23,648 nt of DNA from Candidatus Desantisbacteria bacterium CG1_02_49_89 (GTDB lineage Bacteria; Desantisbacteria; UBA1551), in NCBI GenBank assembly GCA_001871075.1, contig MNUP01000091.1:1-23648 (forward strand), read 5' to 3'. The notes below the pieces were generated by a model. The model was not told where the DNA came from. It saw nothing but the letters and a program-made list of their open reading frames with translations, and ran no database searches. A program made the position numbers and the translations under genes. This document shows, piece after piece, positions 3,056 through 22,667 of the stretch. Positions within the stretch are counted from its first letter, which is position 1. Each line of letters begins with the position of its first letter.

Positions 3056-5401
3056 TCAATTCGGATTCTTATACGCCAGGCCGAAGGCTGCCTGGCCCAG
3101 CGATATTCCCCCGTCATTACACGGGACCTGGCTGTGCGTGAAAACCGCGAATGATCTCTTCACAAGCTTGCCGGAAATCATTTCCAGCAGAAGCTTGTTC
3201 TGAAAAACACCCCCGCTGAGCACAACCCTTTTCAGTCCCGTTGACCTGCTTATCCGCCCGCAGGTTTCCACCACCATATCCGCAACTGTTGCATGGAATT
3301 TATACGCGATTTTCTCGGGGGGAACTTTCGCGGCCAGATCTTTTACTATTCCCCTGATTACCTGCCCCGTCTCTATCACCCTTACCCCATCTTGATTCTC
3401 TATCTTATATTTATAACGTTGACACGTTGACACGTTGACACGTTGACACGTTTTTTCCGCCTCTGCCTGCAGCTCCACCGCCGCCTGAGCCTCATACGTG
3501 GAAATGTCGCATATTCCAAGCAAAGACGACACCGCGTCAAAGAACCTGCCCATGCTTGAGGTTAAGGGGCAGTTTATCTTTTGCTCAAGCATCCTGCTTA
3601 TAAATTTTATTTTATTTTTTCCGACCCTTCTAACTAATGGAACGCGCAGCCCGGTTAAACCGCTGCCGTATGCATCCGCCAGAAAACTCAACGCCATCCG
3701 CCACGGTTCTTCCGCGACTTTGTCACCACCAGGCATCGGGATATATTTAAGGCGGCCTGCCCTTTCAAATCCCTTATAACCCGCGATCAGGAACTCACCG
3801 CCCCATATATTTCCGTCAATGCCGTAACCTGTCCCGTCCAGGATAACGCCGATAACCCTGCCTTCCAGCTTATTATCCGCCATGCAGCTGAGCGCGTGCG
3901 CGAAATGATGTTGGACCCCAAGCAGTTTCGCGCCTTTTTTCCCTGATTCAAGCGCGTATCCGGTGGCAAGATAATCCGGGTGGAGATCGTATGCCAGGGT
4001 GTCCGGATTTATGCCGAACATCTCCCTGTATTTCCTGATCTCATCCCTGTAGAAATCAAAGGTCTCCCTGTTCTTCAGGTCACCGATATGCTGGCTTACG
4101 AATGCAAGCCTTCCTTCCGCGAGGCAGAAGGTATTTTTCAATTCAGCCCCGCACCCCAGGACCTGCCGGCGGTTTCCCGGGCTTACGCCCGTTTCAACGG
4201 GCAGCGGGACAAACCCTCTTGCTCTGCGCAGGATCGCCGGCTTTCCGGCTATAACCTGCACTATGGAATCGTCGCAGCGGTTCTTTATGTCCCTGTCGTG
4301 GAGCAGAAAATAATCCGCTGTCCCGGAAAGTTTTTTAATTGCCTGCGCGTTATCTGCTACCAGGGGTTCGTCAGCGATATTCGCGCTGGTCGCGACAACA
4401 GCGGGAATGCGCAGCTCTTTCAGTAGAAGATGAAGAACGGGAGCGTACGGCAGCATCACCCCGAGATAGTTAGTGCGGGGCGCTATAGAATCTGCGACAA
4501 TACCGGCGATCTGCCCCACGCGTTTCTTCAGGAGCGTTACGGGCCTCTGGGGACCGGCCAGCGCCTTTTCAGATTTTTTATCAATTTCACAATATTTCCC
4601 CGCTGTTTCGGCGTCCCTCATCATAACTGCGAAGGGTTTAAAGGGACGGTGTTTCAGCCTGCGCAGCTTCCGGACTATCCTGTTGTTTCCCGCGTCGCAC
4701 ATTATCAGGAACCCGCCCACCCCTTTCACCGCGACGATCTTTCCTCTTTCAATCAGCCTCGCCGCCTTCTTTATCGGATCAGTTATTCCGTCATTTTGCA
4801 CTTTGCAATTTGCATTTTGCAATTTGCAATCTTTATTCGCTTTAACAAGCCACACCCGCGGACCGCACGACCCGCAGGCGTTAGGCTGCGCGTGGTAGCG
4901 CCGGGTTGCCGGATCATTATATTCCGACGAACAATCGGCGCACATTCTGAACTTGCTCATTGTCGTATGCCTGCGGTCATAGGGAAGGTCCGTTATTATA
5001 GTGAACCTGGGGCCGCAGTCCGTGCAGTTTATGAACGGGTACCCGGATCTCCGATCCGACTGGGAAAACAGCTCTCTGACGCAATTCCCGCAGGTGGCGA
5101 TATCCGGAGAAACAAGAACTCTGTTTATTCCCTTCGTGATACTTTTCTTTATCTCGAATCTGCCGGGACCCGCGGGCCTCAGCATCCTGACGGTTTTTGC
5201 TGAAATACCGGCAAGCGGCGGCGGATTTTTAAGAACGATCTTGAGAAATTTTTTCAGCCGGCCTGCCGGGCCCTCAGCCTCTATAACGACTCCGCTCATG
5301 GAATTTTGCACAAAGCCCTTAAGGCCAAGTAAGACCGCTTCTCTGTAAACAAAAGGGCGGAACCCCACTCCCTGCACTACCCCGCCGAGTTCTATCCTCA
5401 T
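3056..5401 (-). CDS. hypF: Carbamoyltransferase HypF (NiFe-hydrogenase maturation)
   Basis: HypF makes the carbamoyl group that becomes the CN ligands of the NiFe active site. All expected domains are present in order (numbering from the ATG at 5401, 781 aa): acylphosphatase domain with VQGVGFRPFVYR (Arg15); two zinc fingers C104/C107/C126/C129 and C154/C157/C176/C179; a YrdC-like domain (about 210-390); and a Kae1-like domain with HHFAHA and SGGVFQN. Two in-frame tandem-repeat insertions are unusual: CKLQNANCKVQN near residue 192 and NVSTCQRVNVSTCQR near residue 655. TTG codons at 5434 and 5416 are possible earlier starts; the latter has GGAAG upstream, and both would overlap or abut hypA. 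I prefer the ATG because MRIELGGVVQGVGF is where the family begins. Confidence 0.95.
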   Translation of the reverse strand: MRIELGGVVQGVGFRPFVYREAVLLGLKGFVQNSMSGVVIEAEGPAGRLKKFLKIVLKNPPPLAGISAKTVRMLRPAGPGRFEIKKSITKGINRVLVSPDIATCGNCVRELFSQSDRRSGYPFINCTDCGPRFTIITDLPYDRRHTTMSKFRMCADCSSEYNDPATRRYHAQPNACGSCGPRVWLVKANKDCKLQNANCKVQNDGITDPIKKAARLIERGKIVAVKGVGGFLIMCDAGNNRIVRKLRRLKHRPFKPFAVMMRDAETAGKYCEIDKKSEKALAGPQRPVTLLKKRVGQIAGIVADSIAPRTNYLGVMLPYAPVLHLLLKELRIPAVVATSANIADEPLVADNAQAIKKLSGTADYFLLHDRDIKNRCDDSIVQVIAGKPAILRRARGFVPLPVETGVSPGNRRQVLGCGAELKNTFCLAEGRLAFVSQHIGDLKNRETFDFYRDEIRKYREMFGINPDTLAYDLHPDYLATGYALESGKKGAKLLGVQHHFAHALSCMADNKLEGRVIGVILDGTGYGIDGNIWGGEFLIAGYKGFERAGRLKYIPMPGGDKVAEEPWRMALSFLADAYGSGLTGLRVPLVRRVGKNKIKFISRMLEQKINCPLTSSMGRFFDAVSSLLGICDISTYEAQAAVELQAEAEKTCQRVNVSTCQRYKYKIENQDGVRVIETGQVIRGIVKDLAAKVPPEKIAYKFHATVADMVVETCGRISRSTGLKRVVLSGGVFQNKLLLEMISGKLVKRSFAVFTHSQVPCNDGGISLGQAAFGLAYKNPN
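3418..3452. repeat. 8-bp array (GTTGACAC)x4 inside hypF
   Basis: Four perfect GTTGACAC units plus a partial GTT. The coding strand reads (GTGTCAAC)n, which has no stop in any frame and encodes the 8-residue period NVSTCQRV. The opposite strand would give TGA in every frame. Confidence 0.95.
4794..4828. repeat. 7-bp array (NTTTGCA)x5 inside hypF
   Basis: Five consecutive 7-bp units of the form (T/C/A)TTTGCA make 35 bp. Translation on the coding strand gives the odd stretch CKLQNANCKVQN just after the zinc fingers. The same heptamer family lies between genes at 5803 and 19428, and inside pyrK at 18964. Confidence 0.95.
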
Positions 5402-5666: not shown

Positions 5667-5846
5667 TTTTACTCCCTGAATAGTCCGCAGCAGTTTACAA
5701 AGTTTATAAAGTTTACAGAGTTTACAAAGTAAAATATTTCTCTGTGTCTCCGTGCCTCTGTGGTTTATCTTTTACTTTTGTTCCGAAGGAATCCCTTTGG
5801 GACAATTTACAATTTGCAATTTGACTTTTGCAATAATTTTCTATTA
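5667..5846. repeat. Gap made of three stacked tandem arrays and a hairpin
   Basis: A 9-bp array AGTTTACAA x4 (5692-5727), an 8-bp array of TCTCTGTG type x3 (5739-5762) and a 7-bp array of CAATTTG type x4 (5803-5830) lie one after another. An interrupted hairpin with GTTCCGAAGG pairing to CCTTTGGGAC (5780-5803) sits directly before the last array. The 18 bases CAATTTGACTTTTGCAAT in the third array recur inside pyrK. Confidence 0.9.
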
Positions 5847-6602
5847 TCAGGCTCCACGGAGAATACAGGCTTTCACGAACGGCGAAGCCAGCTTTTTCAT
5901 ATTTTCAAGTTCATCCGGTTTGTAAGGAGCTATTTTCCTGAATTCCGGCTTCATTGCCTGTTTGTTTACAAAATTCTGCAGGCAATATTTCCTTGCCCCC
6001 TTTATTGACCTGGCAATGGAAACCACATCATCAGCGGTGTGAAGCGAAGGCACAATGGTTGTCCTGAATTCGTATTCAATGCCGCTCTCCATTATTGTCT
6101 TTATGCTTTCTTTTATCCTTCTAATGTCTATTTTTACTCCCGCCGCCTCTTCGTATTTTGTCTTCTTCCTTTTTTTCTCTGACACGTTGACACGTTGACA
6201 CGTTGACACGTCATCTATTGGTGCCTTCACGTCCATTGCTATGTAATCAACCATCTTATTTTTTAGCAGGTCTTTTACAGTATCGGGCAGAGCGCCGTTG
6301 GTGTCAAGCTTTACTTTCATCCCAAGTTCCCTGATCTCTTTCAGCAATTCCCCTATATCCGCGTAGATGCAGGGTTCGCCTCCGGTCAGGCATATGCCGT
6401 CGATCCATCTCCTGAATTTTTGGAGGTGTTCCTTTATCTTTGCAAGCGGGATCGTTTCATGCTTTTCCGGATGCAGGACAAGGCCCTGGTTCTGGCAGAA
6501 AGGGCAACGGAAATTACACCTGGAAACAAAGAGCGTGGACACTATCCTGCCGTCCCAGTCAAGCATTGACGATTCGATCATTCCCTTAATTTCTATTTTC
6601 AT
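5847..6602 (-). CDS. Anaerobic ribonucleotide reductase activating protein-like radical SAM enzyme
   Basis: The protein is 251 aa with the radical SAM motif C29-x3-C33-x2-C36 (SRCNFRCPFC), GGEP at about residue 74 and the family stretch YIAMDVKAP. This matches the NrdG2 type of glycyl-radical activase, which uses S-adenosylmethionine to install a radical on an anaerobic reductase. No nrdD is present in the window, so the partner is unknown and another glycyl-radical or maturation role is possible. An insertion of about 18 residues (DVSTCQRVNVSEKKRKKT), encoded by the 8-bp repeat, splits the conserved segment DVKAPID...KYEEAAGVK. The frame stays open through it. Confidence 0.85.
   Translation of the reverse strand: MKIEIKGMIESSMLDWDGRIVSTLFVSRCNFRCPFCQNQGLVLHPEKHETIPLAKIKEHLQKFRRWIDGICLTGGEPCIYADIGELLKEIRELGMKVKLDTNGALPDTVKDLLKNKMVDYIAMDVKAPIDDVSTCQRVNVSEKKRKKTKYEEAAGVKIDIRRIKESIKTIMESGIEYEFRTTIVPSLHTADDVVSIARSIKGARKYCLQNFVNKQAMKPEFRKIAPYKPDELENMKKLASPFVKACILRGA
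6181..6210. repeat. 8-bp array (GTTGACAC)x3.6 inside the nrdG-like gene
   Basis: Perfect GTTGACAC units in the same orientation to the gene as in hypF and pyrK, translated as STCQRVNV. Related copies are at 3418, 19192, 21904 and 22605. Confidence 0.95.
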
Positions 6603-6626: not shown

Positions 6627-6694
6627 CACGAATTTCCACGAATTCTCACGGATTCTAAACTTTGACTCTCTGACTCTGTGACTCTTTGACTCTA
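6627..6694. repeat. Two adjacent arrays: 10-bp x3 and 8-bp x4
   Basis: CACGAATTTC, CACGAATTCT, CACGGATTCT (6627-6656) is followed by TGACTCTC, TGACTCTG, TGACTCTT, TGACTCTA (6663-6694). Together they fill most of the gap between the nrdG-like gene and the ferredoxin:thioredoxin reductase-like gene. The CACGAATT family recurs at 11232, 14466-14630 and 20819. Confidence 0.9.
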
Positions 6695-13635: not shown

Positions 13636-14445
13636 CTATCTGCCCAGGATCTTGTCGATCGAAAGGGAAATGTGGTACAGGATGGTATCCGAATGGAACC
13701 TGTAAGGGCCGAATTCAGCTGTCAGGTAGTCATTGTATCCGATCTCATTTAACGCCTGAACGACTCCGGGCCAGTTTACGTTCCCCTCAAGTAAATTCAC
13801 AAATCCCGTGATGTTCCCGGTGCTTGTATTGAAATCCTTTAAATGGATCTTCTTTATTTTTTTGCCCAGTATCCTTATCCACTGCTCGGGAAACCCGTTC
13901 ACGAGCACGTTGCCCGTATCGAAGTATGCCTGGATATAGGGCTTGTTGATCTCTTCTATAAACCCCTTCATCTCCAGAGGGCTCAACAGGAATTTATTCC
14001 AGACATTTTCCGCGCCGATAAAAACCTTGCATGCCTCTGCCGCGGGAGCAAGTTCCAGCATTGCCTGCTTTGCCCTTTCATAAACCACATCATACGGAGT
14101 ATCTTCTGAAACTACTCCAGGGACGACCAGGACCGTATCAGCCCCAAGCCAGGAAGTCACTTCCAGAGCCTTTTTTACGTAGTCTATTGCCTTTTTCCTC
14201 TCGTCCGGGTTGTTGCTTGTAAGCGGGGGCCATCCCGCGCAGACGCTGCAGACCTTTATCCCCGACTCTTTTGCCAGAGAGGTTATTTTTTCCGCGTCAC
14301 CCTTCGCGGTCTTGAGATTTACGTCCGCGCCTTCACCCGCGAAATTGATCTCCACCCCGTCAAAACCCGCCTTCTTCGCCAGAGCGAAACAATCCTTTAT
14401 GCCCATACCACCCGGAAAAATACATTTGTTTACAGCTTTCTTCAT
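13636..14445 (-). CDS. Sugar phosphate isomerase/epimerase-like TIM-barrel protein
   Basis: The protein is 269 aa from the ATG at 14445, chosen because AGGAGG lies six bases upstream; the ATG at 14469 adds eight basic residues and lacks such a site. It belongs to the AP-endonuclease-2-like TIM-barrel superfamily. Likely metal ligands are the Glu of VEINF, the Glu of IGAENVWN, the Asp and His of YFDTGN and IHLKDF, and the Glu of TAEFGP. The family includes xylose-isomerase-like epimerases, so an aldose or keto-sugar is the probable substrate. The neighbouring esterase and oxidoreductase suggest a shared sugar pathway. Confidence 0.9.
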   Translation of the reverse strand: MKKAVNKCIFPGGMGIKDCFALAKKAGFDGVEINFAGEGADVNLKTAKGDAEKITSLAKESGIKVCSVCAGWPPLTSNNPDERKKAIDYVKKALEVTSWLGADTVLVVPGVVSEDTPYDVVYERAKQAMLELAPAAEACKVFIGAENVWNKFLLSPLEMKGFIEEINKPYIQAYFDTGNVLVNGFPEQWIRILGKKIKKIHLKDFNTSTGNITGFVNLLEGNVNWPGVVQALNEIGYNDYLTAEFGPYRFHSDTILYHISLSIDKILGR

Positions 14446-14476
14446 CCTATTCCTCCTTCTTTTAACCACGAATTAA

Positions 14477-14545
14477 CCCCTGCGGGTTTCTACGAAACCA
14501 TAACGCTGGGGCCTGCGAACCAGAGCCATGTTGATGGTTCTCCGG
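14477..14545. other. Fold-back element, copy 1
   Basis: Plus-strand reading: outer stem CCCCTGCG/CGCTGGGG (one T-T mismatch), inner stem GGTTTC/GAAACC with loop TAC, and a 4-base 3' bulge ATAA. A 5-base linker leads to a second hairpin GAACCA/TGGTTC with a 12-base loop. Copy 2 has the same layout with different stem bases. Confidence 0.75.
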
Positions 14546-14554
14546 CACGAATTT

Positions 14555-14622
14555 CCCCCTGCAGCTGCTACGCAGCTCAATGCAGGGACCTTCGGGTCAG
14601 AACCGAGTCGATGACCCTATGG
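14555..14622. other. Fold-back element, copy 2
   Basis: Outer stem CCCTGC/GCAGGG, inner stem AGCTGC/GCAGCT with loop TAC, and a 4-base bulge CAAT. A 6-base linker leads to a second hairpin GGGTCA/TGACCC with a 12-base loop. Loop sequences agree with copy 1 at most positions (GA-CC--GT-GA), whereas the stems differ in a compensating way. Confidence 0.75.
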
Positions 14623-14633
14623 CACGGATTTTT

Positions 14634-14681
14634 GTAACTCAAGGCTTCAGCCTTGATATCAAAACTAAAGTTTTGAGTTAC
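14634..14681. repeat. Three-way hairpin with 9-bp outer stem
   Basis: GTAACTCAA (14634-14642) pairs perfectly with TTGAGTTAC (14673-14681). The interior holds AAGGC/GCCTT and AAACT/AGTTT small hairpins. No T-run follows in either direction. Confidence 0.75.
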
Positions 14682-14716
14682 TCTAACCTGTGTTAACCTG
14701 TGTTAACCTGTGGTTA

Positions 14717-15823
14717 TTATTTTATATAGATCCTCGGGACAAGCATGCCCACCGTGGTGACCACCTCATATCCTATGGTATTATACCAGCCTGCGAGTTC
14801 CTCAGCCCTGATCTCCTCCCTGCCCTGCCTGCCGAACAGCACCACCTCATCCCCGACCTTTATCTTCGATATTCCCGTGACGTCAACAAGGCTCTGGTCC
14901 ATGCATATCCTTCCCGCGACCGGAACCCTTTTCCCTCTTATAATAACGCTGGAACGGTTGGAAAGATTCCTGGCGTAACCCTGGGCGTAACCGACAGGGA
15001 TCACGGCTATCAGGGATCTCCGCTTCGTCCTGAAAGTCCTGCCGTAGCTTATGCTTGCGCCTTTGCCCACCTCTTTAAGCGACACGATCCTGGCTTTCAG
15101 CGACATTGCCGGCTTAAGGAACGCGCATTTTCTTTTTGTTCCCCACGGCGAGATCCCGTAAAGCATGATGCCGGGCCGTACTGCCGTCAGCCGCATTCCG
15201 GGGTATGCAAGAGTAGCAATGCTGTTAGAGATATGGATCAAGGGAATCCTAATACCTTGGCCTGCCAGCTTATCCAGGATATCCTTAAATTTCTTATACT
15301 GTTCCTTTGTGTATTTCCTGTCATCCCCGGCGCTTGAAAGGTGGGAAAATATCCCCTCGATCCTTATATTGGGAAGCTCCGCGATTTTCCGGGCGAAACA
15401 AACCGCTTCCTCAGGCATAACGCCAAGCCTGCCCATGCCGGTGTCAACCTTTATGTGGACCTTCGCGGTCCTGCCGGCCTTTCTTGCCGCAAGCGAAAGA
15501 TTTTTTGCGGATTTGAGATCGAAAATAGTCTGGGAAAAACGATTTGCCAGCACTTCCCTGAAACGCTCGTGCGGCGTGTAGTTCAGGATCAGCACCGCGG
15601 CTTTTATCCCGCCTCTGCGCAGCTCTTCCGCTTCGTCTATGTTAGCAACAGCTAACATATCCGCGCCGTTTTTAAGCATAGCCTTGCCGGATGGAACCGC
15701 TCCGTGGCCATACGCGTCCGCCTTGACCACCGCGATTATTTTAACGTTCCTGCCAACGGTCCTGCGCACATACCGCGCGTTGGACCCTATGCTCCCAAGA
15801 TCCACCTCAACCCATCTTAGCAT
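14717..15823 (-). CDS. alr: Alanine racemase
   Basis: Interconverts L- and D-alanine for peptidoglycan. The protein is 368 aa with the PLP lysine Lys34 in AVVKADAYGHG and the catalytic-tyrosine region SYGRTFRTKRR, followed by VIPVGYAQGYAR. IPVAGRICMDQSLVDVT and NTIGYEVVTTV near the end are also typical. It is complete and without repeat insertions. It sits directly after the pyr genes on the same strand, separated from pyrE by an inverted pair of heptamer arrays. A functional link to pyrimidine synthesis is not obvious; shared transcription is possible. Confidence 0.96.
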   Translation of the reverse strand: MLRWVEVDLGSIGSNARYVRRTVGRNVKIIAVVKADAYGHGAVPSGKAMLKNGADMLAVANIDEAEELRRGGIKAAVLILNYTPHERFREVLANRFSQTIFDLKSAKNLSLAARKAGRTAKVHIKVDTGMGRLGVMPEEAVCFARKIAELPNIRIEGIFSHLSSAGDDRKYTKEQYKKFKDILDKLAGQGIRIPLIHISNSIATLAYPGMRLTAVRPGIMLYGISPWGTKRKCAFLKPAMSLKARIVSLKEVGKGASISYGRTFRTKRRSLIAVIPVGYAQGYARNLSNRSSVIIRGKRVPVAGRICMDQSLVDVTGISKIKVGDEVVLFGRQGREEIRAEELAGWYNTIGYEVVTTVGMLVPRIYIK

Positions 15824-19415: not shown

Positions 19416-19427
19416 GCTCCGTCTTTA

Positions 19428-19476
19428 CAATTTGCAATTTAAAATTTACAATTTACAATTTGAAATTTGTAATTTA
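19428..19476. repeat. 7-bp array (CAATTTG type)x7 across the pyrC stop codon
   Basis: Seven heptamers fill the pyrC/pyrK gap, and the last one supplies the pyrC stop codon. Confidence 0.93.
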
Positions 19477-21841: not shown

Positions 21842-21903
21842 TCCTCTTCCTCATTCCTGCTGCATGCATTAACTATTCGTTTAAATTTATTCCTTGTTTT
21901 TGC

Positions 21904-21935
21904 GTTGATACGTTGATACGCTGACACGTTGACAC
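21904..21935. repeat. 8-bp array (GTTGATAC/GTTGACAC)x4 between pyrR and pyrB
   Basis: GTTGATAC x2, GCTGACAC, GTTGACAC, flanked by TTCCTTG...TTTGCG and GCTTTA, as at 22605. Confidence 0.95.
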
Positions 21936-21943
21936 GCTTTATA

Positions 21944-22495: not shown

Positions 22496-22604
22496 TTTTT
22501 CCTGGCTAACTTATCCTGCTGTACCCACCCTTGTCCGCCAATTCTTAAGGTGGAAATCTTTAAGGAGTGTGATTTGATATTACGATAAAATTCCTTGTTG
22601 TTGC

Positions 22605-22636
22605 GTTGACACGCTGATACGTTGACACGTTGACAC
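22605..22636. repeat. 8-bp array (GTTGACAC type)x4 upstream of pyrR
   Basis: GTTGACAC, GCTGATAC, GTTGACAC, GTTGACAC with flanks TTCCTTGTTGTTGCG and GCTTTA. It lies in the 172-base gap between the ACT gene and pyrR, where leader control would be expected. Confidence 0.95.
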
Positions 22637-22667
22637 GCTTTAAAAAGGAAACTGACTTAACTGTCTT

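Follow-up and report, generated by a model that had tools for sequence, protein, structure and literature searches.

Short units of non-coding DNA, each made of two unlike hairpins in a fixed order, are dispersed in the genome of Candidatus Desantisbacteria bacterium CG1_02_49_89, and the unit is very probably a mobile element. We lean slightly towards the view that the family consists of non-autonomous mobile DNA elements of two hairpins each, moved as a folded single strand by a Y1 (HUH) transposase acting in trans. Two copies, W1 and W2, lie in one intergenic gap of the 23,648-nucleotide stretch of DNA that was analysed (the window; Table 1). Short bacterial repeats mostly consist of single or inverted hairpins; this element is a fixed unlike pair with clean empty sites, self-nesting and more than 100 natural variants. 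It offers a structure-function set of which bases are fixed and which are merely paired for a hairpin-reading enzyme, and it tests whether elements can shrink to their two ends alone.

The two fold-back structures described by the sequence-only reading are present with the layout given there, and the stem differences between them were quoted correctly and are compensatory. Each copy outfolds all or nearly all of its dinucleotide shuffles, on the minus strand (z -3.2 for W2 and -4.1 for W1) and on the plus strand (-3.0 and -4.0). The natural reading strand is, however, the minus strand, opposite to the one chosen at first, and the supposed linker of 5-6 bases is really the base of hairpin A, i.e., the outer CC/GG pair with a symmetric GNA/GNA internal loop. 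The word tandem was misleading as well. W1 and W2 fill the two junctions of one three-unit array and are only 65% identical, with closer relatives elsewhere in the genome (W1 to contig C4, 96%; W2 to C77, 90%). These identities rule out a local tandem duplication, and the two copies are, judging by their sequences, separate insertions of different subfamilies into one short array. The gap is bordered by an alanine racemase gene (14717-15823; Pfam Ala_racemase_N and C) and a gene for a xylose-isomerase-like TIM barrel (13636-14469, AP_endonuc_2 match).

Table 1 Copies W1 and W2, their target array and a neighbouring repeat in the window (scores from covariance model R1)
Feature	Position	Strand	Evidence
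Target array unit 1, CACGAATTAA	14467..14476	.	sequence; empty site in contig C100
Copy W2, complete two-hairpin unit, subfamily other than that of W1	14477..14545	-	model R1, 69.2 bits
W2 hairpin B: A.A mismatch in outer stem, 4-base bulge TTAT, inner stem GGTTTC/GAAACC	14477..14511	-	
W2 hairpin A: internal loop GGA/GCA, stem GAACCA/TGGTTC, loop TCAACATGGCTC	14512..14545	-	
Target array unit 2, CACGAATTT, separating W1 from W2	14546..14554	.	
Copy W1, complete two-hairpin unit	14555..14622	-	model R1, 89.8 bits
W1 hairpin B: outer stem CCCTGC/GCAGGG, 4-base 5' bulge ATTG, inner stem AGCTGC/GCAGCT, GTA triloop	14555..14588	-	
W1 hairpin A: CC/GG base, 6-bp stem GGGTCA/TGACCC, 12-base loop TCGACTCGGTTC	14589..14622	-	
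Target array unit 3, CACGGATTTTT	14623..14633	.	
REPIN-like inverted pair GTAACTCA..TTGA / TCAA..TGAGTTAC, same gap as W1 and W2	14634..14681	.	

The source genome measures 2.48 Mb, and its assembly is 93.5% complete in 150 contigs. A BLAST search with the gap sequence hit 46 places in this genome, part of which belong to a neighbouring repeat. The covariance model R1 was built from 31 aligned copies (alignment A1). A lack of further copies, or a loss of the stems in them, had been named beforehand as grounds for giving up the structure; at E values up to 0.001, R1 found at least 101 copies (150 of 1056 first-look candidates were scored), and the stems are kept. An exact pattern matched 55 times, its reversed control not once. 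Among relatives and other organisms, the exact pattern had no match in 385 genomes, one of the same order included, and the full R1 model had none in 58. The hairpin-A model returned a lone 22-bit match from 40 genomes (in G020), which was judged to be chance. A pattern scan of 84,980 species gave no match, the genome's own record possibly being left out and a single pattern catching part of the family, and a scan of viral contigs also gave none. The family would thus be a lineage-specific expansion, as far as the searched collections show. A known RNA family was rejected: the whole 23.6 kb window had no Rfam match at the gathering score, and the gap yielded chance-level matches at a relaxed threshold, none above 23 bits.

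On the minus strand, the consensus reads CCGNAG - hairpin A - CGNAGG - hairpin B - CAGGGG and spans about 68 bases (usually 66-76 bp). Hairpin A has the layout CC-GNA-6-bp stem-12-base loop-stem-GNA-GG. Hairpin B, unlike it in sequence, follows directly in the same orientation as YCCC.GY-4-base bulge-inner stem-loop-inner stem-..RCAGGG. Among 100 parsed copies, the left trinucleotide of the internal loop is GNA in 97 and the right one in 98; W1, with ATA/GAA, is a rare exception. Followed by G, the trinucleotide forms a G-N-A-G foot on the 5' side of both hairpins, with GTA as its form in 51 of 100 feet on the left and in 32 of 100 on the right. Paired sheared G.A contacts with an unpaired middle residue are a known motif of DNA and RNA duplexes. 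A loop in which G and A are fixed and the middle base is free, on both sides, may be the trace of such paired contacts. In the common type of hairpin A (85 copies), the two loop-closing pairs are always C-G and A-T (a CA/TG step), and the 12-base loop follows the pattern T-Y-N-R-C-Y-Y-N-G-Y-T-C.

The two hairpins are not found apart. Each of the 87 strong hairpin-A matches falls on a full R1 unit or on the nested host of one; the only match outside a full unit is the interrupted host copy at C83:14652. No hairpin A stands alone or lacks a hairpin B directly after it among the strong matches in the genome, and no copy with a gene between the hairpins, i.e., an autonomous long version, was found there. 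In about 15 copies, an unrelated hairpin, CCCGCCACGAATATTGGCGGG, replaces hairpin A inside the same CCGNAG..CGNAGG frame, and the same module in reverse orientation is the tip of hairpin B in other copies. The frame of the unit is conserved and the hairpin tips are exchangeable; template switching may lie behind these swaps.

Selection on the structure, which had been proposed from two copies, is strongly supported by covariation in more than 100. In A1, 95.1% of the cells were paired versus 83.9% after shuffling, with 70 two-sided changes versus 20. In the model-fitted alignment A2 (103 distinct copies), 96.6% of the paired cells were standard (78.5% shuffled), two-sided change occurred in 19 of 20 pairs, and two-sided cells numbered 361 versus 87; the signal was lost when partner columns were slid by one to three. 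Since A2 was fitted to the structure, fairer tests of covariation are A1 and a separate alignment of hairpin A (A3), which was 98.4% paired with 38 two-sided cells versus 10. Covariation extends to the outer CC/GG pairs (UA 10 and 4). Departures from pairing in hairpin A were about equally G-T (7) and A-C (5), so the pairs point to RNA of neither strand.

To study insertion sites, each copy was removed in silico, its 60-base flanks were joined, and the resulting sequence was searched for in 307 kb of sequence around the copies, together with the Y1 and recombinase loci. A match across the joined junction was obtained for 70 of the 101 copies, some being neighbouring copies or arrays. Fifteen of these alignments were read individually. 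Clear filled/empty pairs include C71:44812 versus C7, C50:29788 versus C78, C69:8895 versus C69, C58:3772 versus C106, C124:4494 versus C100, and W2 versus C100, where the junction of AAATTCGTG and TTAATTCGTGGTTAAAAG, split in the window, is uninterrupted. In the clear pairs, exactly one unit was gained at a cost of at most one or two host bases, and no target duplication was seen at the filled sites read. A MITE moved by a DDE transposase was rejected on this ground and because the aligned copies show, by eye, no long terminal inverted repeat. The targets are mostly junctions of 9-10 bp arrays (AATCCGTGTT, ACTCAGTGA, TTTCGTGC, and others); loops and arms of hairpins of other repeats (TCCGA-unit-TCGGA) and copies of the own family also serve. 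The flank is CnGTG or CnGT in 45 of 101 copies, and CGA, CCAG, GATTT and CTT also occur; no single fixed target tetra- or pentanucleotide is present among the flanks of the 101 copies.

At least ten copies sit inside other copies. Six, which resemble one another closely in sequence, occupy the same point in the loop of another hairpin A (after CCCAG or equivalent). At least four others, again mutually similar, follow CCCTGYG in another stem B, and these stem-B nests displaced one host arm (about 11 bases in C124:5931). Three- and four-fold nesting with branched predicted folds was seen at two loci (L039 3120-3330; L101 about 1570-1900). Of the two interpretations first offered, the one that invokes protein recognition of a DNA hairpin is the better fit, as the copies are dispersed, lie in both orientations to genes, have clean empty sites and nest in each other. 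The small RNA-like motif gained no positive support, given the absence of an Rfam match and of a fixed position relative to genes.

An IS200- or REP-type protein had been suggested as the partner of the hairpins. The genome does encode candidates, with ten Y1_Tnp matches, but none is linked to the element: R1 found nothing credible at the ten loci (best 14.5 bits, E 0.17). One gene (L009) is of IS200 type, encodes 150 aa and has its own CCCCGCGGCTTGCCGCGGGG hairpins, unrelated to the ends of the element. Two 163-aa RAYT genes on contig C23 (L015, L016) are flanked by clustered GTAACTCA hairpins and served as a positive control for linkage. Single copies of this hairpin number about 120 genome-wide and cluster at these genes; hairpins and genes together form a clear REP/RAYT system beside the element. 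A 188-aa Y1 gene (L017) with repeated CAACTTGTTGAGG / CCCCAACAAGTTGGGG hairpins on its flanks is probably another REP/RAYT pair. Five RAYT-like genes (222-337 aa) and a Y1 fragment at a contig end lack GTAACTCA, CCCCGCGGCTTGCCGCGGGG and CAACTTGTTGAGG hairpins. Close inverted flanks of the GGGGACGG.. / ..CCGTCCCC type, different in each case, border the RAYT-like genes L010, L011, L012 and L014 and may be read as short terminal inverted repeats.

Movement by a Y1 enzyme of this genome is the most likely mechanism, with about an even chance of being right. The unit would move as folded single-stranded DNA. A Y1 (HUH) transposase provided in trans would hold both hairpins and cut at the outer ends of the unit, and would then join the excised strand to target DNA that is exposed as a single strand or able to form hairpins. 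In this model, the element would have kept nothing but its ends, with hairpin A as the left one and hairpin B as the right one. In REP and IS200/IS605 systems, the guide tetranucleotide sits 5' of the hairpin (PMC8266576, PMC6006769), and for TnpA-REP the AG of GTAG has the strongest role in some systems (PMC8266576). This placement, with cleavage depending chiefly on the last two bases in some systems, suits the G-N-A-G feet on A and B. The feet, the ten Y1 genes, the clean empty sites, the nesting and the covariation speak for the model as a whole. A suggestive addition is a strand bias relative to GC skew: in 90 independent places, the reading strand is the C-rich strand in 57 versus 33 (p 0.015). 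This bias hints at a replication-strand preference, and it is modest and too weak to name the active strand. By its direction, the strand with G-N-A-G would more often be the C-rich one, the reverse of what the simplest lagging-template model predicts for it. Against a Y1 enzyme stand the lack of any Y1 gene flanked by the element, a flank that is not one fixed tetranucleotide, unlike in IS608 or ISDra2, and the loss of about 11 host bases at stem-B nests, which simple cut-and-rejoin does not predict. Moreover, there is another explanation for G-N-A-G, as the two halves of the symmetric internal loop, under which it would not have to act as a guide.

The same anatomy could be handled by something other than Y1: another HUH nuclease, a reverse transcriptase acting on the RNA of the unit, or another nuclease. 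The gene of such an enzyme would have gone unrecognised or lie in the 6% that the assembly lacks. We regard this as unlikely. The absence of a linked Y1 gene, the loose target, the host bases lost at nested sites and the incomplete, fragmented assembly would all suit it. The candidates at hand argue against it, as do the two hairpin ends, whose foot motifs are typical of Y1 systems. The sole reverse transcriptase match is a truncated gene at a contig edge (L131 1300-1923, minus strand); its motifs SQFFGNVYLNELD and RYMDDF resemble, as read, those of a diversity-generating retroelement. A retroelement was rejected, this gene being cut off and not linked to the element. A search with PF00589 returned two full-length genes, XerC/XerD-like by sequence and neighbourhood, and one fragment. 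Integron attC sites were rejected too: many copies have GTTRRRY in the bulge region, but the recombinases are only XerC/XerD-like by sequence reading. The XerD-like gene (L132 1171-2142) carries an in-frame insert (about YLSVQCPVSSVQPKKNPKPETRNPPAFAGKQEGG), suggestive of a repeat that entered the coding sequence, ahead of its catalytic half.

We also regard as unlikely the idea of a distinct class, an obligate two-hairpin single-strand mobile element. It would be read via the symmetric GNA/GNA loop of the paired sheared G.A type and would prefer hairpin loops, including its own, which would lead to recursive branched structures; its enzyme would lie outside the known REP/IS systems.

A regulatory or processing RNA transcribed from the unit (an mRNA leader, a stability or attenuation element), kept by selection on its RNA fold and spread by chance duplication, is in our view very unlikely. 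The strong covariation and the conserved 12-base loop would suit RNA too. By sequence reading, W1 and W2 lie in sense orientation just upstream of a good ribosome-binding site, AAGGAGG (14458-14452), with an ATG at 14445. The copies overall follow no such orientation rule. Gene context was assessed with a home-made gene finder on the 307 kb of stretches around copies; 92 of the 101 copies lie outside predicted genes, at a median distance of 51 bp to the nearest one, and the gene-pair context of gaps with the element resembles that of gaps without it. In the 90 places, orientation to nearby genes was antisense in 56 and sense in 34 (p 0.026). The missing Rfam match and the balance of G-T and A-C departures in hairpin A also argue against RNA, and the filled/empty junctions and self-nesting are not needed by a host regulatory RNA. 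The proposal that no enzyme acts, and that palindromes and arrays multiply via replication slippage, template switching and recombination at hairpins, would fit intergenic DNA rich in 7-10 bp arrays, the wholesale swapping of the CCCGCCACGAATATTGGCGGG module in both orientations and positions, and the replacement of one host arm in stem-B nests, but is just as improbable, because the two-hairpin unit, constant in make-up, was gained cleanly and singly at targets unrelated to each other, on many contigs and in unlinked places; slippage leaves this dispersal unexplained.

The element is close to several known systems. It shares with REP/BIME sequences and their RAYT (TnpA-REP, REPtrons, GTAG-tagged REPs; PMC3733652, PMC8266576, PMC2817692) short intergenic hairpins in about 100 copies, a 5' G-N-A-G foot compatible with GTAG, a bulged stem, a lineage-specific distribution and Y1 genes in the genome. 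In contrast to REPs, its two hairpins are unlike, follow each other in direct order and are never found singly; the stem has GNA on either side as a symmetric loop, the 12-base loop is conserved, copies nest in each other, and no RAYT gene is flanked by the element. As in REPINs, which are inverted REP doublets (PMC3116915), the replicating unit is a hairpin doublet; however, REPIN halves are inverted copies of one REP, whereas the halves here are unrelated and in the same orientation. Like the element, the ends of IS200/IS605 elements (IS608, ISDra2, and end-only derivatives) consist of a left hairpin followed in direct order by a right one, both have a foot tetranucleotide on the 5' side, and insertion leaves no target duplication. 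The element differs in having neither a transposase gene nor intervening DNA, in its loose target where those have a fixed tetra- or pentanucleotide, and in ends that are shared with no intact tnpA element found, those of L009 being unrelated. Class 3 Y1 systems comprise high-copy, atypical multi-hairpin structures with the foot CnGA, described mainly in Planctomycetes, Acidobacteria and Proteobacteria (PMC6006769). The element is similar in its high-copy atypical secondary structures, but none of the ten Y1 genes could be assigned to class 3 from a reading of its HuH and Y motifs.

The element is therefore like a REP or an end-only IS200/IS605 derivative, yet it falls outside both for want of linkage to a Y1 gene. 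Hairpin repeats, bulges, feet and insertion without duplication are known kinds of feature when taken separately. The combination of an obligate direct pair of unlike hairpins, a GNA/GNA frame, tip exchange and recursive self-nesting was not found in the literature searched, which held nothing relevant on nested two-hairpin repeats or on a GNA motif in mobile DNA. If the mover is one of the ten Y1 proteins, the element would extend the rule, established for REP and RAYT, that enzyme and repeat are found together. If it is not among them, an unknown enzyme is at work.

Many intergenic gaps contain a tandem array of their own, with units of 7-10 bp (ACGTTGAC, AGTTTACAA, TAACCTGTGT, TTTACAA, and others). 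In the window, such arrays are located at 190-218, 775-816, 3416-3452, 5692-5730, 6180-6211, 6663-6693, 14684-14712, 19424-19476, 21903-21938 and 22604-22637, among others. The same types of array unit recur in other gaps of the genome, and arrays are the main targets of the element. At three loci (L024, L041, L051), other palindromic repeats adjoin or share arrays, e.g., TCCCAAAGGGATCCCCTTGGGA inside TTTCGTG arrays, and another one, AGTAGGGGCTTTAGCCCC..GGGTCTACT, lies near or in the same arrays. Given these neighbours, the arrays look like hot spots common to several repeat families.
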